A DNA stretch of 64,000 nt. Origin: Syntrophotalea acetylenica. GTDB taxonomy: Bacteria; Desulfobacterota; Desulfuromonadia; Desulfuromonadales; Syntrophotaleaceae. Position 1 is the first letter of the stretch. Each line of letters starts with the position of its first letter. Below, piece by piece: positions 4,017 to 52,864 of the stretch. Location: positions 2,412,001 through 2,476,000 of the forward strand of contig NZ_CP015455.1 of assembly GCF_001888165.1 (NCBI RefSeq), in the 5' to 3' direction. Made by a program: the position numbers and the translations under genes. The notes beneath the pieces were generated by a model. It saw nothing but the letters and a program-made list of their open reading frames with translations. It was not told where the DNA came from and did no database searches.

Positions 4017-4778
4017 ATGTCAAGTCAAGCTTTACATTCCAGTGAAATGTTAAAAAAAGCGCTATTTGGCTTGCCTCCGGGCCTGCCGGTGACGATGAGC
4101 CATTTAAAAGGGTTTGGGCTATCCCGTCAACTTGTCCACCACTATGTTCAGCACGGCTGGCTGACGCAACTGGGCTATGGTTATTATCTCCGCCCCGGCG
4201 ACAAACTGACCAAAACAGGATCGGTTGCCTCTCTCCAAGCCAACGGTGTGGCCGTTCATATCGGCGGGAAAAGTGCCTTGTCCCTCAAAGGCTTTACTCA
4301 TTATCTGAGCATGAGTGAGGCAACCCTGACTCTGTACGGACGCGGGGTGAGAAATCTGCCCAAATGGTTTCAGCAACAATTCAAAGTTGTCTTATCGAAC
4401 AGTCTCCTGTTCAATGAGCCAGAAGAACCCGCCGAGCGGTATTGCGTATCACGTTTGAGCCAGACGGCAGATGCTCCATTCGTTTCCGAGCCGGAACGCG
4501 CTGTTCTGGAAATGCTGGATCTTGTTCCGAAGCAACAGACCCTTGAAGAAGCCAGGCAGATCATGGAAGGGCTTCAATCGCTACGCTCGAAGAAGATGCA
4601 GGAGTTGCTGACACACTGTAAAAAAATCAAGGCTAAAAGGCTTTTCTGGCAGGTTGCGGAAGAGCTGCGTCTACCGGTGCTGAAAAAGATAGACGCTACT
4701 AAAATCGATTTCGGCTCAAAGTCTGCGTACATCCTTCAGGGAGAAAAAACCCTGGTGCTGAGGAACCCGAATGGATAA
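4017..4778 (+). CDS. abiEi: AbiEi-type antitoxin/transcriptional regulator of a type IV toxin-antitoxin system
   Basis: A 253-aa protein with an N-terminal winged-helix region (about residues 10-75; GLSRQLVHHYVQHGWLTQLG, then YYLRPGD) followed by the AbiEi C-terminal domain with the HIGGKSALSLKG segment. In the family, the N-terminus binds the promoter and the C-terminus gives antitoxicity against AbiEii without direct binding. It overlaps the toxin gene by 8 nt, showing translational coupling. ATG 4017 (MSSQALHSSEMLKK) is preferred over the upstream TTG 3975, although the ribosome site is weak. AbiE protects against phage by abortive infection and stabilises mobile elements, which fits its position beside the element's end. 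Confidence 0.8.
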   Translation: MSSQALHSSEMLKKALFGLPPGLPVTMSHLKGFGLSRQLVHHYVQHGWLTQLGYGYYLRPGDKLTKTGSVASLQANGVAVHIGGKSALSLKGFTHYLSMSEATLTLYGRGVRNLPKWFQQQFKVVLSNSLLFNEPEEPAERYCVSRLSQTADAPFVSEPERAVLEMLDLVPKQQTLEEARQIMEGLQSLRSKKMQELLTHCKKIKAKRLFWQVAEELRLPVLKKIDATKIDFGSKSAYILQGEKTLVLRNPNG

Positions 4779-5694
4779 ACGTTACCGGGACACGGTGGCT
4801 CTCCTGCTGGATGCCATACCGCATGTGTTCACGCAGAAATGTTTTGCAATGAAGGGTGGCACGGCAATCAACCTGTTCTGCCGTGACATGCCGAGGTTGT
4901 CAGTTGACATTGACCTGGTGTTCGTTGATCCCACCTCGCCTGAAAGGGCTGAAGCTCTTGCCGCAATCCAGGAGAGTCTGCAACATGTTGCTGAACAACT
5001 GAAACATAAATTGCACGTGACAGTCCAGAGAACCACTTCAGGTTCTGATCAGGAAACGAAACTTTTTGTCAGTCGAGGTGACACACGGGTCAAGATAGAA
5101 GTAAACCATGTATTTCGTGGCTCGGTTTATCCAATCGTTGAAGGCAATTTGAGTGCGGCTGCCGAAGAACTGTTTGAGCGCGAACTGAATGTGCCGATGC
5201 TCGATATTGATGAGCTTTATGCCAGCAAGCTGGTCGCGGCGCTTGATCGTCAGCACCCACGGGATCTCTTTGATGTTTTGCTGCTGAATGAAAACGGCGG
5301 GATCACGCCACGAATGCGCCGGGCGTTTGTGATTTATCTGGCCGGGCATAATCGTCCCATGCATGAGTTGTTGCCACCGCAGACAAACAGCATGAATGAC
5401 GCCTACGAAAAAGAATTTGTCGGCATGACGACCCGGGACGTGAGCCTTCAGGAACTTGAAAAGACGCGCGACCGGCTGTTTGAGGAGTTGCCGCTAGCTC
5501 TTGACCACACCGAGCGAGCATTTCTTGATTCGCTCCACAGGCTTGCTCCCGATTGGGACCTGTTGGGACTTCCAGACGTCGCCGACCTCCCCGCAATCAA
5601 GTGGAAACTCATGAACCTTGAGATCCTGAAGAAGCGGAACCCGGGCAAGTTCAATATAATGCTTGATGCATTAAGACAAAAACTGGGTTTTTAG
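4771..5694 (+). CDS. abiEii: AbiEii-type nucleotidyltransferase toxin
   Basis: A 307-aa DNA-polymerase-beta-fold nucleotidyltransferase. Visible family motifs are KGGTAINLF (motif I, about residues 28-36), LSVDIDLVF with the metal-binding DxD (about residues 43-51), VKIEVNHVFRG, and ASKLVAALDRQHPRDLFDV (motif IV, about residues 150-168). All catalytic motifs appear intact. AbiEii/AbiGii toxins are reversible, bacteriostatic nucleotidyltransferases; related enzymes modify tRNA acceptor ends. It is coupled to abiEi by an 8-nt overlap and is the last gene before the tRNA-derived att site. No terminator is visible until 5823. Confidence 0.85.
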   Translation: MDKRYRDTVALLLDAIPHVFTQKCFAMKGGTAINLFCRDMPRLSVDIDLVFVDPTSPERAEALAAIQESLQHVAEQLKHKLHVTVQRTTSGSDQETKLFVSRGDTRVKIEVNHVFRGSVYPIVEGNLSAAAEELFERELNVPMLDIDELYASKLVAALDRQHPRDLFDVLLLNENGGITPRMRRAFVIYLAGHNRPMHELLPPQTNSMNDAYEKEFVGMTTRDVSLQELEKTRDRLFEELPLALDHTERAFLDSLHRLAPDWDLLGLPDVADLPAIKWKLMNLEILKKRNPGKFNIMLDALRQKLGF

Positions 5695-5787
5695 GGGCTC
5701 GTCTTGTCCATCATGGGGTAGATTCCGGGGTCATATCATTTTTCCGATAATAAAAATTCATTTTATATCATAGCCTTATATCTCACA

Positions 5788-5810
5788 TTCGATTCCGGCC
5801 TTCGGCACCA
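5788..5810 (+). repeat. Attachment site: 3' end of a tRNA-Leu gene (attR-like)
   Basis: These 23 nt are a T-loop TTCGATT, T-stem 3' strand CCGGC, acceptor 3' strand CTTCGGC, discriminator A and encoded CCA, ending at 5810. The acceptor strand pairs with GCCGAAG, the usual 5' end of bacterial tRNA-Leu. The sequence just upstream (CTCACA) cannot form the T-stem, so only the 3' fragment is present. This is the classic attachment core left when an integrase uses the 3' end of a tRNA gene. The original tRNA terminator follows at 5823. The intact tRNA-Leu should lie left of the window at the other end of the element. Confidence 0.75.
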
Positions 5811-5822
5811 ATAGAGAAAATG

Positions 5823-5850
5823 GCCCCTGATCCGTCAGGGGCTTTTTCTT
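5823..5850 (+). terminator. Intrinsic terminator, probably the original tRNA-Leu terminator
   Basis: A perfect 8-bp stem (5823-5830 with 5835-5842) with a TCCG loop followed by TTTTTCTTT. It sits 12 nt after the tRNA CCA end, the usual place for a tRNA transcript terminator. Confidence 0.85.
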
Positions 5851-5940
5851 TGTCCATTGTGATCTAAAAAAGTCGTCGGAAATCCATATAACGATTTATT
5901 TTCAAGCACTTAGAGAAATTCAAAAAATCGAACTTCTTTC

Positions 5941-6171
5941 TCATACTTCCGCCAAACCGTCTACTCTTACGCGCCTAGGCAGCTTTTCCCGGCAAAAAGA
6001 AACTGTTTCTTCAAGAAGGTCCCGGATCGCCAGGATTTTTCCGCAAGTCCAGCGGGCAGTTTCTTCCACGGCGGCAAGCATATAGAGAATCCAGGGCTCC
6101 CATATCTCTCGTTCCATCACTTCCCGCAGGAGCTGGCAATACTGCCTCTTGTTCTGGATGATTTTACCCCA
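5941..6171 (-). pseudogene. Fic-family protein remnant (C-terminal region fragment)
   Basis: On the minus strand an open stretch from 6171 to TGA at 5943-5941 encodes WGKIIQNKRQYCQLLREV, then EIWEPWILYMLAAVEETARW, which closely resembles the helical region following the FIC core in Fic/DOC adenylyltransferase-type proteins. The catalytic HPFxxGNGR motif would lie upstream but is absent: an in-frame TGA precedes the fragment. The C-terminal winged helix is also missing, so both ends are lost. There is no start codon with a ribosome site. It is a decayed gene next to the att site, probably eroded by earlier insertion events. Confidence 0.6.
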
Positions 6172-6211
6172 CAGAACTCAAATCCCTCATATCAAAACCT
6201 GCTTGCATTAT

Positions 6212-6245
6212 CCCATTTTGGGTTATATAGTTCCCAATATGGGAA
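6212..6245. promoter_or_regulatory. Two tandem palindromes at the start of the MNT/HEPN operon, candidate operators
   Basis: CCCA-TTT-TGGG (6212-6222) and TTCCCA-ATA-TGGGAA (6231-6245) share the core CCCA...TGGG, and their centres are 21 bp apart, two helical turns. The second overlaps the ATG at 6239. Binding of the first gene's winged-helix domain here would block both transcription and translation start. Autoregulation is inferred. Confidence 0.5.
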
Positions 6246-6850
6246 ACATCAACAGCAAAACATTTAACATCAGCGATGCTCTGTTTACCAAAACACAGCA
6301 GCAGCTTCTGCGCCTTCTCTTTGGGCAACCGGATAAAAGCTTTTATTCGAAAGAGATTGTCGATCGGGCAGGAATAGGCACCGGGACTGTCCTGCGAGAA
6401 CTGGAAAAGCTCTCAGCTTCTGGCCTTCTGACGGTCAAAAAGATCGGGAACCAGAAACATTACCAGGCAAACCCTTCATCGCCTATTTTCGAAGAGCTGA
6501 AAGGAATCGTCCGCAAAACCTTTGGTCTTTCCGGCCCGTTGCGTCTGGCCCTGGACCAATTCAAGGAGAAAATCAAAGTTGCCTTCATCTACGGTTCTGT
6601 AGCGAAAGGATCGGACACCGCTGGAAGCGACATCGATCTGATGTTGATTTCAGACCAGCTGACCTACCCGGACCTGCTTGTCAGCTTTTCTGAGCTGGAA
6701 ACCCAGTTGGGAAGACAGATCAACCCGACGATTTATACTGACGAAGAGTTCCGAAGCAAAATTACGGCGGAAAGCAGCTTTGTTGTCAGGGTAATCGAGC
6801 AACCCATAGTTTTTCTGATTGGATCGCAAGATGACCTCCCAACAGTTTAA
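6239..6850 (+). CDS. Winged-helix plus MNT nucleotidyltransferase protein, probable antitoxin
   Basis: A 203-aa protein. Residues about 12-85 form an ArsR/MarR-like winged helix (LFTKTQQQLLRLLFGQPDKS, GIGTGTVLRELEKLSASGLL). Residues about 110-170 form a minimal nucleotidyltransferase with IYGSVAKGSDTAGSDIDLML, that is GS...DxD, so the active site is intact. In MNT/HEPN pairs the MNT protein is the antitoxin and can adenylylate its HEPN partner; here it also has its own DNA-binding domain. ATG 6239 fits the domain start; the frame is open further upstream to 6149 but that stretch is unlikely to be protein. It overlaps the next gene by 20 nt. Confidence 0.75.
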   Translation: MGNINSKTFNISDALFTKTQQQLLRLLFGQPDKSFYSKEIVDRAGIGTGTVLRELEKLSASGLLTVKKIGNQKHYQANPSSPIFEELKGIVRKTFGLSGPLRLALDQFKEKIKVAFIYGSVAKGSDTAGSDIDLMLISDQLTYPDLLVSFSELETQLGRQINPTIYTDEEFRSKITAESSFVVRVIEQPIVFLIGSQDDLPTV

Positions 6851-12143: not shown

Positions 12144-13124
12144 TCAAACCCGACCGGCACTGCCAAGCACATTTCTGTTTTTATGAGTGATCAGATCGAT
12201 CAGCTCCTGACGCCCGGCGCCAAGGTACTTGCGAGGATCGAATTCCCGGGGATTGTTCGCCAGGTATTCCCTTACCTTGGCCGTCATGGCAAGGCGGCCG
12301 TCGGAATCGATGTTGATTTTGCATACGGCGCTGGCCGCGGCCTTGCGCAGCTGTTCTTCTGAAACGCCGATGGCTCCTTCGAGGTTTCCGCCATATCGAT
12401 TGATAAGTTCAATATAGGCGGGCACCACGCTCGATGCCCCGTGAAGCACGATGGGAAAACCCGGGATGCGCTTTTCAACCTCCGAAAGGATATCGAACCT
12501 CAGCGGTGGCGGCTGCTCACCGGGCCGAACCTTGAATTTGTAGGCTCCGTGACTGGTACCGATGGATATCGCAAGGGAGTCGACACCGGTTTTACCGACA
12601 AAATCCTCGACTTCCTCAGGCTTGGTGTAGGTCGAATGCTCGGCCGACACTTCGTCTTCGATACCCGCAAGCACCCCCAATTCCCCCTCCACCGTTACAT
12701 CATGGGCATGCGCGTACTCAACGACCTTGCGTGTCAGAGCGATATTTTCATCGTAGGCAAGATGGGAGCCGTCGATCATTACCGAGGAGAAACCGGACTC
12801 GATGCAGGACTGGCACAACTCGAAGGAGTCGCCGTGGTCCAGATGCAGGCAGATGGGAATCTCGGAACCCATCTCGCGAGCCATGCGAACGGCACCCATG
12901 GCCATATAGCGCAGCATGGTCTCGTTGGCATAGTTTCGAGCGCCCTTACTGACCTGAACGATGACCGGCGAGCCGGTCTGGGCGCAGGCCTGGATAATCG
13001 CCTGCAGCTGCTCGAGGTTGTTGAAATTGTAGGCGGGGATGGCATATCCGCCGGCCATTGCCTTGCGGAACATATCGCGCGTATTGACCAGTCCCAGCTC
13101 CCGATAAAAGGTTTTGTCCACCAT
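12144..13124 (-). CDS. fba: Class II fructose-1,6-bisphosphate aldolase
   Basis: A 326-aa enzyme that reversibly splits fructose-1,6-bisphosphate to dihydroxyacetone phosphate and glyceraldehyde-3-phosphate. Class II signs are LHLDHGDSFELCQSCIESGF with the zinc and catalytic Asp/His region (about residues 80-100), GVLAGIEDEV with the metal-binding Glu, SIGTSHGAYK and the phosphate-binding IVLHGASSV. ATG 13124 follows GGGAGGTGCGGGGA, a strong ribosome site; the longer open frame to 13181 is unlikely. It is divergent from gap, and together they cover consecutive steps of glycolysis/gluconeogenesis. Confidence 0.95.
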   Translation of the reverse strand: MVDKTFYRELGLVNTRDMFRKAMAGGYAIPAYNFNNLEQLQAIIQACAQTGSPVIVQVSKGARNYANETMLRYMAMGAVRMAREMGSEIPICLHLDHGDSFELCQSCIESGFSSVMIDGSHLAYDENIALTRKVVEYAHAHDVTVEGELGVLAGIEDEVSAEHSTYTKPEEVEDFVGKTGVDSLAISIGTSHGAYKFKVRPGEQPPPLRFDILSEVEKRIPGFPIVLHGASSVVPAYIELINRYGGNLEGAIGVSEEQLRKAAASAVCKINIDSDGRLAMTAKVREYLANNPREFDPRKYLGAGRQELIDLITHKNRNVLGSAGRV

Positions 13125-13536
13125 TCCCCGCACCTCCCCTTCGGTTCGCAAAAGACACCTGCCTGTTGGCCGGGCACGCATGTGTCCCTGCCCAGGAGCA
13201 CGGCATCCAGATTGAGTAAAAAGTACCAGAAACTATCAACAATTGATTGAAAAGGCAAGACAGTTGGTTTAGAATAAAAAAGTTTAAAAAAGAATGAGAA
13301 ACCACCCCGGACAGGGACTGTTTGCCCATAACGCCGATGCAATCTGGTGCATCGCCTCCCTGCCCCCGCCTGCCGGGCAACCCTAATGCATATTAATATC
13401 AGATACGGATGCGAAGTCCAGCCCAAAGTGCCCCGCGCGGCACAAAACCATTGAAATGCCTCTCCTGTTTTTATAGGATGATGGCCGTTTTTTCAACCGC
13501 AGGCCCGATATTCCCATCGGGCTCCAGAAGGGAGCG
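13125..13536. promoter_or_regulatory. Divergent fba/gap promoter region
   Basis: About 410 nt between the two glycolytic genes. A palindrome ATCAA-CAA-TTGAT at 13235-13247 could be an operator; a weak minus-strand promoter (TTGCCT, 17 nt, TAGTTT) overlaps it. Nothing else was recognised. Confidence 0.3.
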
Positions 13537-14982
13537 ATGAGCATGCAAAAGCAGGAAAAGTACCTGAATGACTGGATCAGGCAAGATGAAGCCGCAGAGG
13601 CCATGCTTCCCCTGATCGGCCACCTCTACCGCGACCGTGGCGTCAACATCAACGTCTACGGTCAGTCGCTGGTCAACAAAACGGTCATCGATGTTTTGAA
13701 CGCCCACGGTTTTGCCCAACAGGTACTCGGAAGCGAACTTTCGATCCTTGATACGTATCCCGTCCTGCAGGCCATGAGCAAGCTCGACCTGTCCCCGTCC
13801 CGCATCGACATCGGGAAACTGTCGGTTCAGTTCCGGGAGCAGAAGGATAAATTGTCCTTAGAGCAATTTGTTGCGGACAAACTCACGGCGGTCAACAATG
13901 GCAGAGGCTCCCTGCTGAACGAACCCCGCGACGTGGTGCTTTACGGCTTCGGTCGCATCGGCCGCCTGCTGGCCCGCGTGCTGGTGGAAAAAACCGGAGG
14001 AGGCGACAAGTTGCGGCTGCGCGCCATCGTGGTCCGCAAAGGCACCGACAACGACCTGATGAAACGTGCCAGTCTGCTGGAAAGAGATTCGGTGCACGGT
14101 CCCTTTCATGGCGTATTGAGCTTCGACGAAGAGGAAAACGCCATCATCGCCAACGGCAACATGATCCGTCTGATCTATGCCAATGCACCGGAAGACATCG
14201 ATTACACCGCTTACGGCATCCGAGATGCCATCGTTATCGACAATACCGGCCTCTGGCGGGACCGGGAGGGACTCGGACGGCACCTCAAGGCCAAAGGCGT
14301 ATCGAAGGTCATCCTGACCGCCCCCGGCAAAGGCGACATCCCCAACATCGTTTTCGGAATCAACAACGAACTGGCCACGCCCAACGAAAATATTTTTTCG
14401 GCTGCCAGTTGCACCACCAACGCCGTGGTGCCGGTGCTCAAGGCCGTCAACGACCGTTTCGGCATCGTCAACGGACATCTGGAAACCTGCCATTCCTACA
14501 CCAACGACCAGAACCTTATCGACAACTACCACAAAAAGAGCCGCCGCGGCCGAGCCGCCGCCCTCAATATGGTCATTACCGAAACCGGAGCGGCCAAGGC
14601 ATCCGCCAAGGCCCTGCCCGAACTCGCCGGAAAACTCACCGGCAACGCCATTCGCGTGCCGGTAGCCAACGTATCCCTGGCGGTTCTGAACCTGTCCCTT
14701 AGCAAGACAACCTCCGTCGAAGAATTGAACGACTATCTGCGCGACATCGCTCTGCACTCCGATTTGCAGAATCAGATCGCCTTCGTCAATTCACCGGAGC
14801 TGGTCTCCAGCGATTTCATCGGTTCCCGTCATGCCGGGGTGGTTGACTCCCTGGCCACCATTGTCAACGGAGACCGTTGCGTACTGTACGTGTGGTACGA
14901 CAACGAATTCGGCTACACCTGTCAGGTCGTTCGCCTGCTGCAGAAAATCGCCGGAATCGAACTGCCGATCATGCCGAACTGA
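13537..14982 (+). CDS. gap: Glyceraldehyde-3-phosphate dehydrogenase, long form
   Basis: A 481-aa GAPDH, about 140 residues longer than the standard 330-340-aa enzyme because of an N-terminal helical extension (residues about 1-125). The NAD-binding GFGRIGRLLARVL begins near residue 132, the catalytic cysteine is in SAASCTTNAVVP, the histidine in ETCHSYTNDQNL, and the C-terminus carries YDNEFGYTCQVVRL. I recall this long form from several proteobacterial groups. It oxidises glyceraldehyde-3-phosphate to 1,3-bisphosphoglycerate. AAGGGAGCG precedes ATG 13537. A terminator follows at 15009. Confidence 0.93.
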   Translation: MSMQKQEKYLNDWIRQDEAAEAMLPLIGHLYRDRGVNINVYGQSLVNKTVIDVLNAHGFAQQVLGSELSILDTYPVLQAMSKLDLSPSRIDIGKLSVQFREQKDKLSLEQFVADKLTAVNNGRGSLLNEPRDVVLYGFGRIGRLLARVLVEKTGGGDKLRLRAIVVRKGTDNDLMKRASLLERDSVHGPFHGVLSFDEEENAIIANGNMIRLIYANAPEDIDYTAYGIRDAIVIDNTGLWRDREGLGRHLKAKGVSKVILTAPGKGDIPNIVFGINNELATPNENIFSAASCTTNAVVPVLKAVNDRFGIVNGHLETCHSYTNDQNLIDNYHKKSRRGRAAALNMVITETGAAKASAKALPELAGKLTGNAIRVPVANVSLAVLNLSLSKTTSVEELNDYLRDIALHSDLQNQIAFVNSPELVSSDFIGSRHAGVVDSLATIVNGDRCVLYVWYDNEFGYTCQVVRLLQKIAGIELPIMPN

Positions 14983-34670: not shown

Positions 34671-34683
34671 GAGCGCGATAAAA

Positions 34684-34826
34684 ATTCTCAGGGCGGGGTG
34701 AAAGTCCCCACCGGCGGTGATGTTGCCATGCGCAAACAAGCCCGCGAGCGCCTGTCCCCCAGGGAAGGCCAGCTGACCCGGTTGGAATCCGGGGCCGACG
34801 GTTACAGTCCGGACGGGAGAGAATGC
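34684..34826 (+). ncRNA. FMN riboswitch (RFN element)
   Basis: The conserved blocks of the RFN element are all visible: TCAGGGCGGGGTGAAAGTCC, then CACCGGCGGT, the AGCCCGCGAGCG block, and the 3' closing ACAGTCCGGACGGGAGAGAA. It binds flavin mononucleotide and shuts off expression when FMN is plentiful. It lies about 100 nt upstream of ribB. Confidence 0.95.
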
Positions 34827-34923
34827 ATGCCTGCAGGCGCCTGCCGCCTCGACTCCCCGCGAACCACGCGCAACCCCATCACGCCTTGAGATGCAACCCT
34901 TCACCATTTCAAGGAGCGTCGTG

Positions 34924-42600: not shown

Positions 42601-43482
42601 TCAGTACTTTCCGGTCAAACCGATAAAGGCATCTTCAAAGTTCATTGGCAACCGCCGCAGCGTCTCATGCGAAACACCGTGCGCATCCAGATAGCCGGCC
42701 AACTCTGCGCCGGTAATAAAGCCATGCACGAGGGTCCGCCCACCCACATGCTCCACGCGCACCAACATTTCACCCTCCTCGAGCCGCTCCGCAGATGGCG
42801 AACGCTCGAAACTGAAGCACTGGAACTCCTCCATAAAGGCCTGCTTGCGGCCCGAAATGCAGACCCGGCCATGGTCGAGAATGATGAGATTATCAATGAT
42901 CGGGTCCAGTTCCTGAACGATGTGGGAGGTGATTAAAATGGTGGTTCCATATTTTTGCACATACTCTCCCAGATACTCGACGAACAGCCGCCGATAACCG
43001 ACATCAAGCCCCATGCTGTAATCATCGAGGATCATCAGATCGGGGCGCTGCGCCACGATGAGCCCCAAAACCACTTGAGATCGCTGTCCACAGGACAAGC
43101 GGCCAAGCGTACGCTCATAAGGCACCTGGAGACGGTTGACCAGATCGAAAAAAAGTTCGCGCTCCCAGCGGGGATAAAAACCGGCGTAATAACGTTCCAG
43201 TTCGGCAATGGACATGAAGTCATACTGAATGAAGCGCTCGTGGAGAAGGCCAATGCGACTGCGAGTCGGAGGCGACAAGGCGTGACCGGGCTCACCAAGA
43301 ACCCGGCAAAATCCAGCGGTGGGACGCAGAAATCCCATGATGATATTGATAATGGTGGTTTTTCCGGCGCCGTTTTTACCCAGAAGCCCAAACACGCCGC
43401 CCTTTTGCACACTAAAGGATATGTTGTGCAAAACATCCATTTCACCGTAGGTGTGACACAGTTGCTCGCATTCGATGATCAC
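42601..43482 (-). CDS. ABC transporter ATP-binding protein, YtrB-like
   Basis: A 293-aa ATPase. Walker A is GKNGAGKTT, the signature is LSCGQRSQV in place of LSGGQ, Walker B is LMILDDYSMGLD and the H-loop is TSHIV. The usual catalytic Glu after Walker B is an Asp (ILDD), and the signature has Cys for Gly. Both changes may slow hydrolysis, although YtrB-type exporters show variants. GTG 43482 follows AAAGGA. It is paired with the DUF4857-like permease. Confidence 0.85.
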   Translation of the reverse strand: MIIECEQLCHTYGEMDVLHNISFSVQKGGVFGLLGKNGAGKTTIINIIMGFLRPTAGFCRVLGEPGHALSPPTRSRIGLLHERFIQYDFMSIAELERYYAGFYPRWERELFFDLVNRLQVPYERTLGRLSCGQRSQVVLGLIVAQRPDLMILDDYSMGLDVGYRRLFVEYLGEYVQKYGTTILITSHIVQELDPIIDNLIILDHGRVCISGRKQAFMEEFQCFSFERSPSAERLEEGEMLVRVEHVGGRTLVHGFITGAELAGYLDAHGVSHETLRRLPMNFEDAFIGLTGKY

Positions 43483-44699: not shown

Positions 44700-45017
44700 T
44701 TATTCGCTGCTTTTCTCCATGGCCTCAAGCTGCTGTTTCAACACCGTCAACGACTGCTCAAGCGCATCGATCTGAGCCTTGAGCTGGTTGCTGTCCGGAG
44801 CCTGCGCGATTGGACCCGGTACAGGATAGGCAGCAGGAAAACCCCACCCGCCAAAACCGCGCCGCCAGGCCATGGCCCGGCCACCGCCGCGCCCCCGGCC
44901 CATGCCGAAACCTGCACCATAGGCAAAGCCAGGCATATCAAAACCGGCGCAATACCCCATCCGCCGACCGGTCAACGGCCCATATCCCATCGGTCCTGTT
45001 CCATCTCCACGTGGCAT
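44700..45017 (-). CDS. DUF5320 family protein
   Basis: A 105-aa protein with the standard start MPRGDGTGPMGYGPLTGRRM, a Gly/Met/aromatic-rich middle (GAGFGMGRGRGGGRAMAWRR) and a C-terminal coiled coil (LKAQIDALEQSLTVLKQQLE). DUF5320 proteins are common in anaerobes next to NifX/NifB-like genes; function is unknown, though Met/Gly/Cys-rich regions suggest metal handling. AAGGAGGGCGAA precedes the ATG. It is the last of three same-strand genes. Confidence 0.85.
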   Translation of the reverse strand: MPRGDGTGPMGYGPLTGRRMGYCAGFDMPGFAYGAGFGMGRGRGGGRAMAWRRGFGGWGFPAAYPVPGPIAQAPDSNQLKAQIDALEQSLTVLKQQLEAMEKSSE

Positions 45018-45146: not shown

Positions 45147-46433
45147 TTATTCCACCAGGGATTCTTCGACGGAATGGGTCGGTTCGCTCAGGACCGGCAG
45201 CTGTTTTTCGCGGAATCGGGCAATGACTTCGCTGACACTCTGGTCCTCGGCCACCTGGTAGATGTCGACCAGATTGTCCTTGAGCATATAGAAGGAAATT
45301 TCGCCAATACGGGGGGTAAACAGCAGGTCGATTTTTTGCGCCAGCATGGTCTTGATGACCTTCAGGCCGATGAATTTTTTCTGGTCGAGAAACTGGTTGG
45401 AATAAAAGTCCTCGATTTCCTCGCCCTGCGCATGCAAACGCAGCACCACGAAAAAGGGCGCACGCCCGAAATGACCGTGTACCCGGGATTCCAGTCCCTT
45501 GATATCCTTGACCGGAACGATAGCGGTCAATTCATGATCGGTGGCCGGCTCGACATGCACGAAAACCGATTCAATGTGTTCGCTCTGCTTGCGGATGGCC
45601 TGCTCGGCCAGATCCGCCAGATGGTGGGCGCGATACAAAGGCAGGGTGGGACTGGTATAGATGACGCAATCGACCATGCGAAACGGGCCGGCCTGACGAA
45701 TACGCACCTCGCTGATGCCCTTGACACCGTAGATGCTGTTGACACACGCTTCGATGGCATGGGTCAACCGGGGATCGAGGTTGGCGTCCAGCAGCGCCAG
45801 AAAAGACTGCCGCACGCTGCTCCAGCCCAGTTTGATAATCAGAAAGGCGATCAGCAGAATGACAGCCCCCTCGATATAACGGATACCCAGATAGTCGAGC
45901 AGCAATCCCGCCAGCACCACGCTCGAGGTCGCGATATCAAGAAACGATTCGCCGGCATTGACCTGCAGCGACTGGGAATTGATGGCGCGGCCGACGTGTC
46001 TTTCCGCCAAAGCGATCGCCAGGGATACCACCATGGAAACGGCGCTGGCCAGCATCGGTACCAATGGCATGGTTCCCCTGCCCGCAGCATGCCCCAGTTT
46101 GTCCAGCCCTTCCGGAATCAATTCCAGTCCCGCCCAGCAGATCACCGCCCCGGCAAGCAGGGTGACAAAGGTTTCCGCCCGGTAAAGACCGTAGGGAAAC
46201 CGCTCGGTCTTTTCCTTGGCGGCCAGCCAGAGGCCAAAGAAGCTGGCAAAAATCGCCAGCAGATCCGCACCGCTGTGAAAAGCGTCGGCGATCAGCACCG
46301 GAGAATTGTAATGCCAGCCCACCAGAGCCTTGCCGACGGCCAGACCAAAGGTGGCCGCCGTCGCCAGCAGGGCGATTCTCTGGCCGCGCTGAAGCCGGGC
46401 CGTCTGGGCTCGTTGAACACAGACCTCAGTCAT
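45147..46433 (-). CDS. CDF cation efflux transporter fused to a NifX/NifB-like domain
   Basis: A 428-aa fusion. Residues about 15-215 are a cation diffusion facilitator with six membrane segments and the metal site DAFHSGADLL; residues 215-300 are the CDF cytoplasmic ferredoxin-like domain. The last 120 residues (LTAIVPVKDIKGLESRVHGH, FGRAPFFVVLRL, TMLAQKIDLLFTPRIGE) match the dinitrogenase iron-molybdenum cofactor domain of NifX/NifY/NafY. The transporter likely exports Zn2+, Fe2+ or Mn2+, and the extra domain may bind a metal cluster or sense metal. GAGAGG precedes ATG 46433. Confidence 0.85.
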   Translation of the reverse strand: MTEVCVQRAQTARLQRGQRIALLATAATFGLAVGKALVGWHYNSPVLIADAFHSGADLLAIFASFFGLWLAAKEKTERFPYGLYRAETFVTLLAGAVICWAGLELIPEGLDKLGHAAGRGTMPLVPMLASAVSMVVSLAIALAERHVGRAINSQSLQVNAGESFLDIATSSVVLAGLLLDYLGIRYIEGAVILLIAFLIIKLGWSSVRQSFLALLDANLDPRLTHAIEACVNSIYGVKGISEVRIRQAGPFRMVDCVIYTSPTLPLYRAHHLADLAEQAIRKQSEHIESVFVHVEPATDHELTAIVPVKDIKGLESRVHGHFGRAPFFVVLRLHAQGEEIEDFYSNQFLDQKKFIGLKVIKTMLAQKIDLLFTPRIGEISFYMLKDNLVDIYQVAEDQSVSEVIARFREKQLPVLSEPTHSVEESLVE

Positions 46434-46696: not shown

Positions 46697-46807
46697 ATGT
46701 TTTTTCTGCAACCAAAAGCATTCATTTTACAGATCCGCATGCCACGCCACCACCCGTCAATCTGCTAGAATAAGGAAAGAAATCCCATGCTCAAAGGAGG
46801 CTGTCGC

Positions 46808-47554
46808 ATGCGGCACATGCATCTGCCCTTTGATATTTTACCGCAACCGGATGAAACAACCTGCGGCCCGACCTGCCTCCATGCGCTTTATTGCTATTTC
46901 AACCAGGAAATGCCCCTGCCGCAGGTGATCCGGGAGGTGCCGATGCTCGAAGGCGGCGGCACCCTGGCGGTATTGCTGGCCTGTCACGCTCTGGACAAGG
47001 GATTTCGCGCCACCATCTACAGCTACAAGATGCAGCTTTTCGACCCCACCTGGCTGATGCCGGGCGGGCCGGATATTCGGGACCGCCTGCAAAAACAGAT
47101 GCTGTTCAAAAACGATCCGAAACTGCAGGCCGCCTCACGGGCTTACCTGCGTTTTCTTGATCTGGGAGGGCAGTTGCGCTTCGAGGATCTTACCCTCGAT
47201 CTTATCCGACGTTACGTCAAGCGCGAACTGCCGATCATCACCGGGCTCAGCGCCACCTACCTGTACCGCACTCCCCGCGAGTATGGTCCACTCTGCGAAT
47301 ACGACGATATCCGCGGCGAACCTTCGGGACATTTCGTCGTTTTATGTGGCTACGACAAGGAACGGCGCACCATCGCCGTGGCCGACCCGCTGCTGCCCAA
47401 TCCGGTGGCGGATCGGCAGATTTACAATGTTCCCATCGAACGGGTGCTGTGCGCCATACTGCTGGGTGTTTTGACCTATGACGCCAACCTGCTGATCATC
47501 CAACCCCGACAGGAGCGACAACGCCATGCCTCTCGACACCCTGATCGTGGTTGA
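46808..47554 (+). CDS. C39-like cysteine peptidase
   Basis: A 248-aa papain-fold protein without signal peptide. The motif QPDETTCGPTC holds Q13 (oxyanion) and catalytic Cys19; H175 (SGHFVVLCGY) and D193 (VADPLLPN) complete the triad. C39 domains of this kind cleave peptides, for example double-glycine leaders, or act as bacteriocin-type processing enzymes; here it is free-standing and cytoplasmic. ATG 46808 is chosen on AAAGGAGG 7 nt upstream. Its 3' end overlaps the RimK-like gene by 29 nt. It is the first gene of a four-gene operon with two ligases. Confidence 0.78.
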   Translation: MRHMHLPFDILPQPDETTCGPTCLHALYCYFNQEMPLPQVIREVPMLEGGGTLAVLLACHALDKGFRATIYSYKMQLFDPTWLMPGGPDIRDRLQKQMLFKNDPKLQAASRAYLRFLDLGGQLRFEDLTLDLIRRYVKRELPIITGLSATYLYRTPREYGPLCEYDDIRGEPSGHFVVLCGYDKERRTIAVADPLLPNPVADRQIYNVPIERVLCAILLGVLTYDANLLIIQPRQERQRHASRHPDRG

Positions 47555-49010
47555 TGACCCGGCCGCCTGGCCTATCGATATCCCCGGCACGGAACTCGTT
47601 AAAGCACGCCACTACCTGACCGACCCTGGATATCAAAACCGGCGGCGTGTCAAGGTTTTCAACCTCTGTCGCTCCTACCGCTACCAGAGCCTGGGGTATT
47701 ACGTCTCGTTGCTGGCCCAGGCCCGCGGTCACCGTCCGCTGCCGGATGTCTCGGCGATTCAGGATCTGAAATCGAACAGCATGATTCGTACCGTGTCGGA
47801 CGAACTGGACGATACGATCCAGAAAAGCCTGCGTCCCCTGCGTTCCGGAGAATTCATCCTCAGCATCTACCTTGGACGTAATTTTGCCAAACGCTACGAC
47901 CGACTGAGCCAGCAACTGTTCAGCCTGTTTCCGGCACCGTTTCTGAGGGCCTGCTTCGCCTACAACCCCAAACGGGAAAAGTGGCAGATGCAGAACATCA
48001 TGCCGCTGGCCGCCAGCGAAATCCCCGAAGAACATCGAGCATTTGCCCTCGAGAAGGCCGTCGAATATTTTCAGCGTCCCCGACCGCGAACGCAGCGGCA
48101 CGGCCGGGCGCGCTTCGACCTGGCTATCCTGACCAACCCCGATGAAGCCGAACCGCCATCCAACACCCGAGCCCTGCAGCGCTTTCTGCATGCCGCCAGG
48201 CAGGTCGGATTCTCAGCAGAGATCATCGGGCGCAATGATTTCGGCCGCCTGGCCGAGTTTGACGCGCTGTTTCTGCGAGAAACGACCAGCGTCAATCACC
48301 ACACCTTCCGTTTCGCCCGCCGCGCTGTCGCTGAAGGCCTGGTCGTCATCGACAGTCCGGAGTCGATTCTGAAATGCACCAACAAGGTATTTCTGGCAGA
48401 ACTGCTGCGCCGACATCACATCGCTGTGCCGGATACCCTGATCCTGCACCGCCCCGCCCCGGAACCGGTGATCGCCAGTTTGGGACTGCCCTGCATTCTG
48501 AAACAGCCGGATGGTTCCTTTTCCCGCGGCGTGCTCAAGGTCGATCGGGCAGAAGACCTGCGTCAGGAACTTATCCACCTGCTGGCCCATTCCGACCTGG
48601 TGATTGCCCAGCGCTACCTGCCAACAACTTTCGACTGGCGCATTGGCATCTTCGATCGTCAGCCATTGTATGCCTGTCGCTATTATATGGCGGCCCGGCA
48701 CTGGCAGATCCTGCGCCACGATCTTGATGGCAGGCTGCTCGACGAAGGCCGCTGGGAAACGCTGCCAATCCAGGACGTCCCCGCCGGGGTCGTTTCCACG
48801 GCGCTCAAGGCCGCCAACCTCATCGGTGACAGTCTGTACGGGGTGGACCTCAAACAGGTGGGCCGACGGGTCTATGTCATCGAGGTCAATGACAATCCAA
48901 ATATCGATGCAGGAGTGGAAGACGCCGTTCTCAAGGAGAACCTGTATCGCATCATCATGCAGGGATTGATGCGGCGGGTGGAGATGCGCAAGGGGATTCC
49001 GGGCAAATGA
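47526..49010 (+). CDS. RimK-type ATP-grasp ligase with an extra N-terminal domain
   Basis: A 494-aa protein. Residues about 1-190 are a domain usually seen in front of this ATP-grasp subgroup (VFNLCRSYRYQSLGYYVSLL, RPLPDVSAIQDLKSN). Residues about 200-490 are ATP-grasp: FRETTSVNHHTFRFARRA-like core, CTNKVFLAELL, ILKQPDGSFSRGVLKV, the ATP-binding VIAQRYLPTTFDWRIGI, and the metal-binding VIEVNDNPNIDAG. Catalytic Glu/Asn are present. It should join a carboxylate to an amine using ATP. It overlaps the peptidase gene by 29 nt and the next gene by 4 nt. Confidence 0.82.
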   Translation: MPLDTLIVVDDPAAWPIDIPGTELVKARHYLTDPGYQNRRRVKVFNLCRSYRYQSLGYYVSLLAQARGHRPLPDVSAIQDLKSNSMIRTVSDELDDTIQKSLRPLRSGEFILSIYLGRNFAKRYDRLSQQLFSLFPAPFLRACFAYNPKREKWQMQNIMPLAASEIPEEHRAFALEKAVEYFQRPRPRTQRHGRARFDLAILTNPDEAEPPSNTRALQRFLHAARQVGFSAEIIGRNDFGRLAEFDALFLRETTSVNHHTFRFARRAVAEGLVVIDSPESILKCTNKVFLAELLRRHHIAVPDTLILHRPAPEPVIASLGLPCILKQPDGSFSRGVLKVDRAEDLRQELIHLLAHSDLVIAQRYLPTTFDWRIGIFDRQPLYACRYYMAARHWQILRHDLDGRLLDEGRWETLPIQDVPAGVVSTALKAANLIGDSLYGVDLKQVGRRVYVIEVNDNPNIDAGVEDAVLKENLYRIIMQGLMRRVEMRKGIPGK

Positions 49011-50254
49011 CAACATCCAGAAGGCTGCATCTGTTCGAAGGCATTGGCGTGGAACTGGAGTACATGCTCGTCGACCGGCAATCCCTGGCGGTGGCACCCA
49101 TGGCCGACCGGCTGCTGGCCGCCCAGGCCGGGCATCTTACGGACGAAGTGGAGGCCGGACCGCTGCGCTGGTCCAACGAGCTGGTCCTGCATGTGATCGA
49201 GCTGAAAACCAACGGCCCCGCCGCCGGCCTGACCGAGTTAGCGCCGATTTTTCAAGAAGGTGTTGCCGCGGTCAACCGGCGTCTGGAAACATTTAACGCA
49301 CGGCTGATGCCCACCGCCATGCACCCCTGGATGGACCCCGCCAGGGACAGCCGTCTGTGGCCCCATGACAACAGCCTTATCTACCAGACCTACCATCGGA
49401 TTTTCGACTGTCGCGGCCACGGATGGGCCAACCTGCAGAGTTGTCACCTCAACCTGCCGTTTTGCGGCGATGCGGAATTCGGCAGTCTGCACGCCGCCAT
49501 TCGCCTGCTGCTGCCGATCCTGCCGGCACTGTCGGCCAGCTCGCCTTTTATGGACGGTCGCTTCAGCGGGTTGCTCGACACCCGCCTGCAGGTTTACCGC
49601 GACAATCAGAAACGTATCCCGATGATTACCGGCCGGGTAATCCCTGAAGCGGTGTTCAGCCGGCGGACCTACCGGGAGCAGATCCTGTGGCCACTCTACC
49701 GCGCCATCGCCACCGACGACCCGCAAGGCGTTCTGCAGGAAGAATGGCTCAATTCGCGGGGTGCCATCGCCCGGTTCGAGCGGGGCACCATCGAAATACG
49801 CACCCTGGATGTGCAGGAAACGCCGGTGGCCGACCTGGCGATTGCCGCTGCCGTGGTAGCCACGCTCAAAGCCTTGACCAAACAACGCTGGCAGTCGCCG
49901 GCAAAGATGCGGGACTGGCCGGTGGAACCACTGGCGGAAATACTTTCCGCCACCATCCGCGACGCCGAACAAGCTGTCATCGGCAACCGCGCCTATCTCT
50001 CTATGTTCGGTCTCGACCGCGACCGTGCCACGGCGAAAGAGTTGTGGCGGCACCTCGTAACCACTCTGGGGCGGGAGCAATGGGGGGAATTGAAATCGTT
50101 TCTGCCGGAGTTGACAACCATCCTGGATCGGGGGCCACTGGCGCGGCGCATCCTTGATGCCCTGGGCAAACATCCCGGTCTGGATAATATAGCCGCAATC
50201 TACCGAGCCCTGTGCGACTGCCTTGGCAAAGGCCGCATGTTTCTTGCCGAGTGA
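49007..50254 (+). CDS. Glutamate-cysteine-ligase-like (GCS2) carboxylate-amine ligase
   Basis: A 415-aa protein of the GCS2 fold (COG2170-type). GIGVELEYMLVDRQ at the N-terminus holds the metal-binding Glu residues, CHLNLPFCGDAEF lies in the core, and RFERGTIEIRTLDVQETPVA closes the active site. GCS2 enzymes form gamma-glutamyl amides; the amine here is unknown, and full glutathione synthesis genes are not nearby. ATGA overlap (4 nt) with the ATP-grasp gene indicates coupling. Confidence 0.82.
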   Translation: MTTSRRLHLFEGIGVELEYMLVDRQSLAVAPMADRLLAAQAGHLTDEVEAGPLRWSNELVLHVIELKTNGPAAGLTELAPIFQEGVAAVNRRLETFNARLMPTAMHPWMDPARDSRLWPHDNSLIYQTYHRIFDCRGHGWANLQSCHLNLPFCGDAEFGSLHAAIRLLLPILPALSASSPFMDGRFSGLLDTRLQVYRDNQKRIPMITGRVIPEAVFSRRTYREQILWPLYRAIATDDPQGVLQEEWLNSRGAIARFERGTIEIRTLDVQETPVADLAIAAAVVATLKALTKQRWQSPAKMRDWPVEPLAEILSATIRDAEQAVIGNRAYLSMFGLDRDRATAKELWRHLVTTLGREQWGELKSFLPELTTILDRGPLARRILDALGKHPGLDNIAAIYRALCDCLGKGRMFLAE

Positions 50255-50319
50255 GCGGCAGAGCAGATAAACCCATGGCTCTTTGCACTCCTGACCCAAC
50301 CGGATCAAAGGATCACCCC

Positions 50320-51036
50320 ATGACTTGCACGCCCCGGATTTTTGTCAGTTGCGAACATGCCAGCAATCGGATTCCAGTGCGATACCGGCACCTTTTCGAA
50401 GATCGGCGGGCCGTACTCGAAACCCATCGTGGATACGATATCGGCATACTGCCTTTTGCCGAAAGTCTGGCGGCAGCCTTCCAGGCACCGTTGCTTGTCG
50501 CCAATGTCAGCCGCCTGCTCGTGGACCTCAACCGGTCTGCCGCCAACCGTACGCTGTTTTCCGAATTCAGCCGCCACCTGCCTTTCTCGGAGCAGCAACT
50601 GTTGCAACAACACTACCACCGGCCCTACTGGCGCACCGCCAAAGACATCGTCGCCGGCATCATCGCTCAAAACGATCGCGCGCTGCACCTTTCGGTGCAC
50701 AGCTTCACGCCGATCCTCAACGGAAAGGTCCGCAATGCCGATATCGGCCTGCTGTACGACCCGTCGCGGAGCGCCGAAAAATTGTTTTGCCGCCAGTGGC
50801 AAAAAGCCCTCGCGGCAACACAACCGACACTGCGCATCCGTCGTAACTACCCCTATCGCGGCAACGCTGACGCCCTGGTTACCTCTCTTCGCCAAAATTT
50901 TGGGGAAAACAGCTATCTCGGCATCGAAATCGAAATCAACCAGGCCATCCCGCTCAGCGGCAAAAACACTTGGGCAAGGCTGCAACAGGCATTGATCGCA
51001 GCGCTGCGCAAAACCCTGCGAAATATCAACGCATGA
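50320..51036 (+). CDS. N-formylglutamate amidohydrolase-like enzyme
   Basis: A 238-aa protein of the FGase family. Visible are VSCEHASNRIP (metal-binding Glu/His), THRGYDIGILPFAESLA, LHLSVHSFTPILNGKVRNAD, IGLLYDPSR and YLGIEIEINQ. FGase enzymes release formate or cleave N-acyl-glutamate, so here the enzyme may hydrolyse a glutamyl or N-acyl amide formed by the ligases. ATG 50320 follows AAAGGATCACCCC. It begins 65 nt after the GCS2 gene and ends the operon. Confidence 0.82.
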   Translation: MTCTPRIFVSCEHASNRIPVRYRHLFEDRRAVLETHRGYDIGILPFAESLAAAFQAPLLVANVSRLLVDLNRSAANRTLFSEFSRHLPFSEQQLLQQHYHRPYWRTAKDIVAGIIAQNDRALHLSVHSFTPILNGKVRNADIGLLYDPSRSAEKLFCRQWQKALAATQPTLRIRRNYPYRGNADALVTSLRQNFGENSYLGIEIEINQAIPLSGKNTWARLQQALIAALRKTLRNINA

Positions 51037-51096
51037 AATTGATTTCGCAGAAGTTTCTGATAAATTCACAGGACGGTCAGGTAAATCGGTGCAAAG

Positions 51097-51110
51097 TTGA
51101 CCGGCATCAA
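51097..51110. promoter_or_regulatory. FNR/HcpR-like palindrome upstream of hcp
   Basis: TTGACCGGCATCAA: half-sites TTGA and TCAA separated by 6 nt, the spacing of CRP/FNR-family sites; the left half TTGACC matches HcpR boxes known from delta-proteobacteria. It is 101 nt before the hcp start. The regulator is inferred. Confidence 0.5.
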
Positions 51111-51211
51111 TTTTTCTCTTGTCGATCCGGGTTAGGTTGCCATCAAAGACACCCTGAAACGCTTCTGAACAGATATCGCCCAGGCATATCCCACCAAGAC
51201 GAGGAGGAAAC

Positions 51212-52864
51212 ATGTACTGTCACCAATGCGAACAGGCGGCAAAAGGCGTAGCATGCACGGTAACCGGCGTATGCGGCAAGCAACCGGAAACGGCGGCGCT
51301 GCAGGACAACCTGCTGCAGGGCCTGCGGGGTCTGGCCTACTACGCCAACGAGGCGCGCAAACAAGGCAAAAAAGATTTGCAGATCGACAAGTTCATGCTG
51401 GCCGGGCTGTTTGCCATCGTGACCAATGTCGACTTCGATCCCAAGCACCTTGAAGAACTCATCGCCCGTTGCTACAACATGGAAAAAAAAGCCATGGATC
51501 TGGCCGGAACCTCCTGCTGCGGCATCGGCAAGCTGGTGAGCGGCATCAAGGAAGCCTTCAAACCCGGGGTGCCGGCGGACGCCAAGGACTGGAAACCGAC
51601 TTCCGATCTGATCAAACAGGGGGAAAGCTACAGCATCGAGCATCTGCACGCCGATCCGGACGTGCGTTCAGCCATTGAAATCCTGATCTACGGCCTCAAA
51701 GGCATGGCGGCCTATGCCCACCATGCAATGATCCTGGGTAAAACCGACGATGAAGTTTTCGCCTTTTTCCACCGGGCGCTGGCCGCCACCTGCGACCCCA
51801 ACCTGGGACTGATGGATTTCGTCAACCTGGCCATGGAATGCGGCAAGGTCAACCTGACCGTCATGGGGATGCTCAACGAGGCCAATATCGGACATTACGG
51901 CAAACCCGAACCGACCATGGTCAACACCGGTACCCGCAAGGGCAAGGGAATCCTGGTTTCCGGACACGACCTGAAAATGCTGGAGGAAGTTCTCAAGCAA
52001 AGCGAGGGCAAGGGCATCAACGTCTACACCCACGGGGAAATGCTGCCGGCCCACGGCTATCCGGGTCTGAAAAAATACAAGCACCTGGCCGGCAACTTCG
52101 GCGGCGCCTGGCAGGACCAGGCCAAGGAATTCCCCGAATTTTCTGGCGCCATTATCTTCAATACCAACTGCATCCAGCGTCCGGCCGATTCCTATAAAGA
52201 CCGCCTTTTCACCTGGGACTGCGTAGCCTGGCCCGGCGTCAGGCATCTGGAAGGATGGGACTTCTCCGAGGTTATCGACAAGGCCCTCGCCTGCCCCGAC
52301 CTGCCCGAAGCACCGGGCAAGGAAATCATGGTCGGTTTCGGCCACGACGCGGTGCTGGGCGTAGCCGACAAGGTCATCGAAGCGGTGAAGGCCGGCGCGG
52401 TAAAACATTTCTTCCTCATCGGCGGTTGCGACGGCGCCAAACCGGGGCGCAACTACTACACCGAGTTCGCCGAAAAAGTCCCCAAGGACTGCGTGATCCT
52501 GACTCTGGCGTGCGGCAAGTACCGTTTCAACAAACTTGACTTCGGCGACATCGGCGGCATTCCACGCCTGCTCGACGTGGGACAGTGCAACGACGCCTAC
52601 AGCGCCATCCAGATCGCCATCGCCCTGGCCGGCGCCTTCGAATGCGGCGTCAACGATCTGCCTCTGTCGCTGATTTTGTCCTGGTACGAGCAGAAGGCGG
52701 TGGTCATCCTGCTGACCCTGCTGCACCTTGGCATCAAGAATATCAAGCTTGGCCCCACCCTGCCGGCCTTTGTTTCGCCGAACGTATTGAATTACCTGGT
52801 GGAAAACTTCAACATCGCCCCCATCAGCACCCCGGATGCCGATCTCAAGGAAATCCTCGGCTGA
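51212..52864 (+). CDS. hcp: Hydroxylamine reductase / hybrid cluster protein
   Basis: A 550-aa Hcp. The N-terminal cluster motif is CHQCEQAAKGVACTVTGVCGK with cysteines at 3, 6, 15 and 21. The hybrid 4Fe-2S-2O cluster ligands are seen in the family blocks with NTGTRKGKGILVSGHD, CIQRP, GGCDGAKPGRNYYTEF, LTLACGKYRFNK and CNDAYSA. It reduces hydroxylamine or nitric oxide and may S-nitrosylate proteins in other organisms. GAGGAGGAAAC precedes ATG 51212. No hcr gene follows; a terminator does. Confidence 0.95.
   Translation: MYCHQCEQAAKGVACTVTGVCGKQPETAALQDNLLQGLRGLAYYANEARKQGKKDLQIDKFMLAGLFAIVTNVDFDPKHLEELIARCYNMEKKAMDLAGTSCCGIGKLVSGIKEAFKPGVPADAKDWKPTSDLIKQGESYSIEHLHADPDVRSAIEILIYGLKGMAAYAHHAMILGKTDDEVFAFFHRALAATCDPNLGLMDFVNLAMECGKVNLTVMGMLNEANIGHYGKPEPTMVNTGTRKGKGILVSGHDLKMLEEVLKQSEGKGINVYTHGEMLPAHGYPGLKKYKHLAGNFGGAWQDQAKEFPEFSGAIIFNTNCIQRPADSYKDRLFTWDCVAWPGVRHLEGWDFSEVIDKALACPDLPEAPGKEIMVGFGHDAVLGVADKVIEAVKAGAVKHFFLIGGCDGAKPGRNYYTEFAEKVPKDCVILTLACGKYRFNKLDFGDIGGIPRLLDVGQCNDAYSAIQIAIALAGAFECGVNDLPLSLILSWYEQKAVVILLTLLHLGIKNIKLGPTLPAFVSPNVLNYLVENFNIAPISTPDADLKEILG

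Follow-up and report, generated by a model that had tools for sequence, protein, structure and literature searches.

The ATP-grasp ligases ArgX, LysX and RimK attach glutamate or aminoadipate to a carboxylate, and in animals the RimK-like ligase RIMKLA takes part in the N-acetylaspartylglutamate cycle together with the GNAT NAT8L, the deacylase AspA and a peptidase. The amidoligase neighbourhoods of Iyer et al. (2009) probably include the GCS2 type. The accessible part of PMC10318531, citing that work, describes DUF3335 as often fused to GNAT, with a possible role as a ligase or in acetylation, and the accessible part of PMC10219603 lists a paper on N-acetylaspartylglutamate synthase among its references. 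Here we analyse a four-gene operon of Syntrophotalea acetylenica (Desulfobacterota) that lies at positions 46,808 to 51,036 of a 64,000-nucleotide stretch of contig NZ_CP015455.1 (assembly GCF_001888165.1, positions 2,412,001 to 2,476,000, forward strand), hereafter the window. It encodes a C39-type peptidase, a ligase that joins an RLAN domain to a RimK-like domain (RLAN-RimK), a GCS2-type ligase and an N-formylglutamate-amidohydrolase-like hydrolase (FGase). We found that the four genes are one real, widespread unit, from which FGase and C39 are sometimes missing, and that RLAN ligases pair with either GCS2 or GNAT, almost never with both. This alternation is new in the present analysis. The features of the operon are:

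46762..46771, + strand: CTGnTAnAAT element 5′ of the operon, resembling an extended -10 box (alignment of upstream regions)
46808..47554, + strand: C39-type (papain-like) cysteine peptidase gene (Pfam Peptidase_C39_2, PF13529, 9.9e-9; triad C19/H175/D193; 248 aa)
47526..49010, + strand: RLAN-RimK ligase gene (PF14401 RLAN, 1.9e-48; PF08443 RimK, 5.9e-7)
49007..50254, + strand: GCS2-type carboxylate-amine ligase gene of a distinct, RLAN-tied subfamily (PF04107, 2.4e-26)
50320..51036, + strand: FGase gene (PF05013, 5.1e-24)

The C39 and RLAN-RimK genes overlap by 29 nt, the RLAN-RimK and GCS2 genes by 4 nt, and a 65-nt gap precedes FGase (ATG at 50320). The four co-directional genes and both overlaps, as described in the original prediction, were recovered from the open reading frames and the DNA; the motifs it had called intact (C19/H175/D193, EVNDNPN, GVELEYM and CEHASN) are all present, and the N-termini, judged by eye, agree with its statement that signal peptides are absent. 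The C39 reading frame is open from 46787, and its best-fitting start is the ATG at 46808, with AGGAGG directly 5′. The CTGnTAnAAT columns are invariant when the upstream regions of the window and four same-genus loci are aligned, and the element is a putative promoter. The 3.2 Mb genome has one RLAN gene.

RLAN was found in 6 of the 14 family genomes and in 11 of the 247 phylum genomes. At 15 other RLAN loci, the order C39-RLAN-GCS2-FGase was found in nine and FGase was missing in two; three had GNAT and no GCS2, and one (L032) had a broken RLAN with GCS2 and FGase, no C39 being found there. The RLAN gene of L032 is split into two frames beside an open GCS2 frame, which suggests decay or a sequencing error. 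With a profile of the GCS2 subfamily, eight of the 247 phylum genomes scored at least 636 bits, and each of the eight carries RLAN; every other match fell below 33 bits. In the phylum sample, the subfamily is found only with RLAN; it is therefore no stray ligase.

A scan of named genomes yielded at least 586 RLAN-RimK relatives, of which the best 80 were taken. By record title, these come from Desulfuromonadales/Desulfobulbaceae, Gammaproteobacteria, Nitrosomonas-like bacteria, Planctomycetota, Verrucomicrobia, Bacteroidetes, Balneolaceae, Ignavibacteria, Spirochaetes, Nitrospirota, Omnitrophota and others; many of the records are metagenome bins, where contamination is possible. Cultured isolates with all four genes include Thiobacillus thioparus (L043), Rufibacter roseus (L054), Pontibacter (L081, L094, L096 and L097) and Marivirga (L112). 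Wherever the partners were found near RLAN, they shared its strand (window-type C39 109/109, GCS2 114/114, FGase 78/78), with median gaps between profile hits of 3, 5 and 2 nt, respectively, and spacings between -60 and +150 nt in 107/109, 107/114 and 73/78 cases. All four genes are full-length in 65 loci, where their pairwise distances correlate (r 0.65–0.84); these correlations were computed without a control gene, and common ancestry alone may yield much of them. Because strand, order and tight gaps are kept while the genes flanking the operon vary between loci, the unit consists of these four genes. Conservation of gene order in other genomes was the test set by the original prediction, and in distant bacteria the order holds, as do strand and tight spacing. 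Four enzymes kept in order across such distances suggest a metabolite or protein modification of broad use.

We tallied the partners of RLAN at 111 loci, which are all the RLAN loci of three genome samples: 10 from the window's phylum with the window itself left out, 70 from 321 genomes of the class of L043, and 31 from 247 genomes of the phylum of L054. The two sample centres were chosen and are both GCS2-type, so that two loci were picked rather than drawn; five loci of the window's own family, all GCS2-type, lie outside the 111. Genes on both strands were counted up to 5.5 kb from RLAN, as some GNATs lie on the strand opposite to it. Of the 111 loci, 42 had GCS2 only, 62 had GNAT only, one had both and six had neither. 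Three of the six (L203, L231 and L243) are cut by contig ends, and three (L236, L255 and L295) are uncut. At the sole locus with both (L246), the GNAT is a different protein, a GNAT-CN_hydrolase fusion according to Pfam and one of the unrelated GNATs that the profile also picks up; of the further profile matches counted as unrelated, that at L038 lies in a shadow-like frame, and another is at L069. The best-80 set, ranked by likeness to an alignment with the window protein at its head, was kept out of this count (GCS2 only 66, both 2, GNAT only 3, neither 9).

FGase is restricted to the GCS2 type in the three samples (33/43 GCS2-type loci versus 0/62 GNAT-type loci), and a C39 of either kind is present at 85 of the 111 loci (58/70, 21/31 and 6/10). 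Each RLAN genome has exactly one RLAN match (70/70 in the L043 class and 31/31 in the L054 phylum), which supports the alternation weakly, as so few genomes carry each type that little chance overlap would be expected anyway. All four GNAT-type proteins put to Pfam (L200, L256, L291 and L288) have GNAT fused to a DUF3335 peptidase, and this DUF3335 is homologous to the operon's C39 (hhalign probability 95.6, E 1.3e-8), with the Cys, His and Asp-Pro motifs in register by eye. In three cases, L031 in the window's phylum and L273 and L280 in the phylum of L054, RLAN itself is the fusion partner of GNAT. Of the 50 GNAT loci in the L043 class, four have a DUF2817 protein nearby; one of two such proteins tested gave a below-threshold match to AstE/AspA.

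The partner labels require at least four changes on an RLAN tree of 189 proteins, from which rows with stops or fewer than 430 residues were left out. A better modelled 75-row tree, consisting of a partly random subset and 13 loci added on purpose, likewise requires four. One of these falls at the deep division of RLAN into its two main clades. Besides it, GNAT rows nest within the GCS2 clade three times. L031 and the Bacteroidota fusions form a clade of their own (99), placed inside a 96 node that is drawn open. L067 groups with GCS2 rows (97), and L095/L109, again a separate clade (100), fall within nodes of 84–94. The tree is unrooted and gives no direction of partner change. Because partners have been exchanged repeatedly while the ligase was kept, GCS2 and GNAT appear to hold equivalent jobs, each putting an acyl group onto an amine as a capping step. 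In particular, since a GNAT acetyltransferase replaces GCS2 in a parallel RLAN system, GCS2 probably adds an N-acyl cap. The alternation turns the question of function into a testable one: which amine is capped, and with what.

We tentatively propose, as a reading somewhat short of probable, that the operon serves to build, and also to break down, a small intracellular N-capped peptide metabolite, with FGase and C39 recycling it. We infer every reaction, substrate, product and direction of use in this proposal from enzyme families and partner exchange. GCS2, with ATP, would cap an amino acid at its amino group with an acyl residue, most likely glutamate joined through its gamma-carboxyl. The ATP-grasp domain of RLAN-RimK would then activate the remaining carboxylate and add an amino acid, most likely glutamate, although the order of the two ligases could be reversed. 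FGase would take off the cap and C39 would cleave the peptide, which would allow the pool to be recycled. In the sister version, GNAT would supply an acetyl cap; the DUF3335 peptidase is fused to GNAT in the examined cases, and a DUF2817 protein, weakly AstE/AspA-like and thus possibly an N-acyl-amino-acid deacylase, sometimes lies nearby. The original prediction had seen two amide-forming ligases and two amide hydrolases; these families are confirmed, but the set is in our view better read as a capped-peptide module in which GNAT replaces GCS2 elsewhere.

A wider form of the proposal is more speculative, and we regard it as rather doubtful. It would make the operon a widespread bacterial pathway to a gamma-glutamyl-capped acidic peptide, for example gamma-Glu-X-Glu, as the glutamyl version of a module that caps, ligates with a RimK-type enzyme, decaps and cleaves. 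The GNAT loci would be its acetyl version, the capping chemistry would have been swapped repeatedly while the ligase was kept, and the whole would parallel, in bacteria, the N-acetylaspartylglutamate cycle of animals.

Family models place the four proteins broadly, and none of the four scores above the cut-off of an NCBIfam model. RLAN-RimK matches PF14401 at 164 bits (cut-off 25) and RimK at 29.7 bits (cut-off 21), with RLAN at about residues 27–175 and the RimK-like ATP-grasp amide ligase at about 196–487. Six ATP-grasp positions are present in all 189 rows of relatives and D456 in 188 of them. For these and the following conservation counts, rows with stops or too short were dropped and positions were picked from the conserved columns of the first alignments; the catalytic roles of the conserved residues are predicted from their families. 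The structures predicted for RLAN-RimK and GCS2 have pLDDT values of 90.7 and 96.6. Structure matches to the first span only model residues 194–490, the RLAN half being residues ~1–190. This ATP-grasp half is closest to ArgX and LysX (Z 26.8; root mean square deviation (rmsd) 2.3 and 2.1; 266 and 264 residues aligned) and to RimK (Z 25.8, rmsd 2.8, 272 aligned), followed by D-Ala-D-Ala ligases (Z up to 23.7) and then glutathione synthetase GshB (1gsa; Z 21.8, rmsd 2.8, 266 aligned).

Kinship with LysX raises a quite improbable alternative, in which the ligases modify an existing metabolite, such as a folate-, F420- or methanopterin-like polyglutamate, and the hydrolases trim it in a salvage or catabolic module. 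The LysX (TIGR02144) and MptN models do give the ATP-grasp half some score (52.1 and 37.7 bits, short of the cut-off, which is 275.6 for LysX), but no cofactor gene was seen to recur beside the operon when genes were identified by eye. No LysW carrier gene was noticed beside the operon either, the genome as a whole not having been searched for LysW.

Kinship with RimK raises a more serious one, a protein target. RLAN-RimK would add glutamates to the end of a protein, as RimK does on ribosomal protein S6, GCS2 would add or branch side-chain glutamyl groups, and C39 and FGase would remove them. The ATP-grasp half compares to RimK at Z 25–26, while the RimK S6--glutamate ligase model (NF007764) gives RLAN-RimK only 15.7 bits against a cut-off of 331. 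In favour of a protein target, the operon holds no substrate gene; against it, no protein partner is kept beside the operon at the compared loci. The GCS2 fold includes PafA and Dop, but at a best Z of ~21 these stand well behind the YbdK-like protein 1tt4 (Z 39.8, rmsd 2.5, 348 aligned) and plant glutamate-cysteine ligase (GCL) 2gwc (Z 34.5, rmsd 3.1, 366 aligned). Three GNATs tested had RimI, a protein acetyltransferase, as their best GNAT match (70–80 bits versus a cut-off of 86.4), although an acetyl cap in place of GCS2 would be less natural for a polyglutamyl tag. A related peptidase/ligase pair, RimB-RimK, acts on RpsF according to the accessible part of PMC12239564. Because the tested GNATs are RimI-like and RimK acts on a protein, the protein target stays a serious rival, though we consider it somewhat unlikely.

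GCS2 belongs to the PF04107 superfamily (93.2 bits versus a cut-off of 21). Nine of its positions are present in 109/109 rows, including E16, E18 and E263, which by analogy with the family may bind metal. The YbdK model TIGR02050 gives 63.8 bits against a curated cut-off of 176.4, although the fold is common to both. Its resemblance to plant GCL, of which an Arg aligns with the invariant R193, and the presence of a GCS2 and an ATP-grasp enzyme as in the GshA/GshB layout bring in a glutathione-like thiol. GCS2 would then make gamma-Glu-Cys, the ATP-grasp ligase would add a third residue, and C39 would resemble phytochelatin synthase or a gamma-Glu-Cys hydrolase; phytochelatin synthase is indeed a papain-like C83 peptidase (PMC10318531, in its accessible part). 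We judge this pathway clearly unlikely, as the ATP-grasp half is nearer to ArgX, LysX and RimK (Z 25–27) than to GshB, none of the glutamate-cysteine ligase models of NCBIfam reaches its cut-off for GCS2, GNAT in place of GCS2 would abolish a thiol, and FGase is left unexplained.

FGase matches the broad PF05013 only (86.1 bits versus a cut-off of 28.9); the HutG N-formylglutamate deformylase model TIGR02017 gives it 18.2 bits against 278.75, and its nearest solved relative is the structural-genomics protein 2odf (Atu2144; 3.9e-34). Its residues E12, H13, D40, R65, R72, H123 and H127 are kept in 74/74 rows and E203 in 72 (two gaps), while G135 is kept in only 65 of 74. In C39, C19 is present in 108/109 rows (one gap) and H175 and D193 in 109/109.

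The nearest solved relatives of C39 by sequence are the C39 domains of bacteriocin/ComA transporters, a weak match (3.6e-5), and graspetides are made by ATP-grasp ligases (PMC8939145, in its accessible part). C39 could thus be the leader peptidase of a graspetide or other ribosomally synthesized and post-translationally modified peptide (RiPP) system. This reading is disfavoured, and we hold it to be very improbable: the peptidase is a single-domain protein of 248 aa with no fused transporter, unlike the ABC-transporter leader peptidases, and four constant enzymes stand among variable flanks. An ABC ATPase gene at 42601-43482 lies on the opposite strand, 3 kb from the operon and unfused to C39.

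The original prediction had suggested looking for a conserved short peptide gene, and none is kept beyond the window's own family among the 10 loci searched (stop-to-stop frames of 18–130 residues within 1.5 kb on either side). Without filtering, the largest chained group of frames spans nine loci. With low-complexity and composition filters, no group joins the window to the distant loci L023, L024, L026 and L028, and the groups left are confined to the window's own family (the window and L018–L022), mostly downstream over the hcp gene. A match between the window and L023 (32% over 43 residues, opposite strands) disappeared on filtering, and a genus-wide frame across the FGase-hcp gap proved to combine the start of hcp, read in another frame, with a conserved stretch that looks non-coding. 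A RiPP precursor beside the operon is thus not supported, with a family-specific precursor not fully excluded.

No fifth gene recurs at all the loci, and several apparent clusters proved false, arising from antisense shadow open reading frames. Among the varying flanks, arginine genes lie near the operon in four Pontibacter loci (by eye, one genus) and a Rieske gene at L035 (Pfam) and L040 (by eye). An RMD1/DUF155-like gene, identified by eye, is directly upstream on the same strand at L050, L057 and L108 and was also seen at L067 and L087; the L050 protein gave no Pfam match. At L035, L040, L050 and L057, a class II glutamine-amidotransferase-like gene (MCRFTLYLGPP, by eye) adjoins the operon on the opposite strand. 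EgtC, a gamma-glutamyl amidase, has the class II glutamine-amidotransferase fold, and such a fold would suit a gamma-glutamyl product.

Several points weigh against a capped-peptide metabolite. FGase is missing from 10/43 GCS2-type loci, DUF2817 is found at only 4/50 GNAT loci of the L043 class and a C39 of either kind at only 85/111 loci; with so many absences, the chemistry does not require the hydrolases. That the cap is gamma-glutamyl is an assumption based on kinship with YbdK and GCL, and to our knowledge the true substrate of YbdK is not settled. Among the four tree changes, one is the deep two-clade split, and another depends on L067, a weak case because its GNAT is 2.3 kb away. GNAT and GCS2 could also act on different positions, and the RimI-like score of the three tested GNATs would suit a protein target.

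Other genes surround the operon. A Prismane-family (hydroxylamine reductase-like) gene, hcp (51212-52864), lies 3′ of it in the window and four same-genus loci, and common downstream frames suggest the same for L021 of the same family; no member of the hcp cluster was found in the more distant loci compared, indicating local synteny. In the FGase-hcp gap, a stretch at ~51096-51150 is conserved in the genus, as seen from common translated frames. Within it, TTGACCGGCATCAA at 51097-51110 resembles by eye what we take to be an FNR/HcpR-type palindrome upstream of hcp. Upstream in the window are a flavin mononucleotide (FMN) riboswitch (34680-34828, 109.7 bits), a cation efflux transporter with a C-terminal dinitrogenase FeMo-cofactor-type (Nitro_FeMo-Co) domain (45147-46433) and, near it, a DUF5320 gene (44700-45017). 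At L024, an Amidoligase_2 (PF12224) and Peptidase_C26 pair adjoins the operon on the opposite strand (12750-14571), forming a second amide-ligase/hydrolase set, and a tRNA-Ser (6732-6820) lies just 5′ of the C39 gene. At L038, two D-Ala-D-Ala-ligase-like ATP-grasp genes (4625-6492, by eye) lie a few genes upstream of the operon.

A lone RLAN-RimK gene on the P. aeruginosa plasmid pZYPA1927 (L298) stands near a glutamate/aspartate ABC transporter set and pagP; within 5 kb of it, the GCS2, FGase, GNAT, C39 and DUF2817 profiles had no match. Judging from its gene order, it presumably corresponds to PA1345. In the accessible part of PMC12802237, PA1345 is a "Hypothetical ATP-binding protein" in a table of CpxR-binding sites predicted by motif, not by DAP-Seq. 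This entry hints only faintly at envelope stress and does not count as evidence.

We found no paper on the product of the four-gene operon in the open-licence literature, which agrees with the original prediction that no product is established. Its term "undescribed system" holds to the extent that no product was found in print; on the other side, RLAN and DUF3335 are named families, and the link of DUF3335 to GNAT is published (PMC10318531, in its accessible part). The term is thus too strong, being fair as to the product but probably not as to the existence of the operon. RefSeq annotates a Legionella adelaidensis record with generic names (RimK family protein, glutamate-cysteine ligase family protein and N-formylglutamate amidohydrolase). 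Finding which amine is capped, and with what, would assign functions to RLAN, the GCS2 subfamily and its FGase, and by extension to DUF3335 and DUF2817.

Compared with known systems, the operon shares single traits with several. The Rlo and Rim operons of Pseudomonas also pair an ATP-grasp ligase with a peptidase, but there the peptidase is aspartic, rlo has the membrane protein RloB, and the accessible part of the source mentions no GCS2 or FGase (PMC12239564). NAGGN synthetase (TIGR03103, GNAT plus ATP-grasp) has the cap-plus-ligation logic of the GNAT version, whereas only its GNAT part matches, and weakly (23.6 and 26.5 of 569 bits). YbdK-type ligases and plant GCL share with the operon's GCS2 the whole-chain fold and the metal and Arg positions, but identity in structural alignments is 14–18%, and the operon's subfamily occurred only with RLAN in the phylum sample. 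RimK, ArgX and LysX have the ATP-grasp fold and the ATP/Mg residues of the operon's ligase, which differs by its extra N-terminal RLAN domain, ~20% identity and scores below every NCBIfam cut-off. The animal N-acetylaspartylglutamate cycle follows the logic proposed here, in which a cap is added, a RimK-type enzyme ligates, the cap is removed and the peptide is cleaved; in the operon the cap enzyme is GCS2, and we claim no common ancestry for the set. Closest are the GNAT-DUF3335/RLAN-RimK loci (e.g. L200 and L256), where GNAT replaces GCS2, FGase is absent (62/62) and DUF2817 is occasionally nearby, and which share with the operon a homologous RLAN-RimK ligase, a homologous papain-like peptidase and a single RLAN match per genome.

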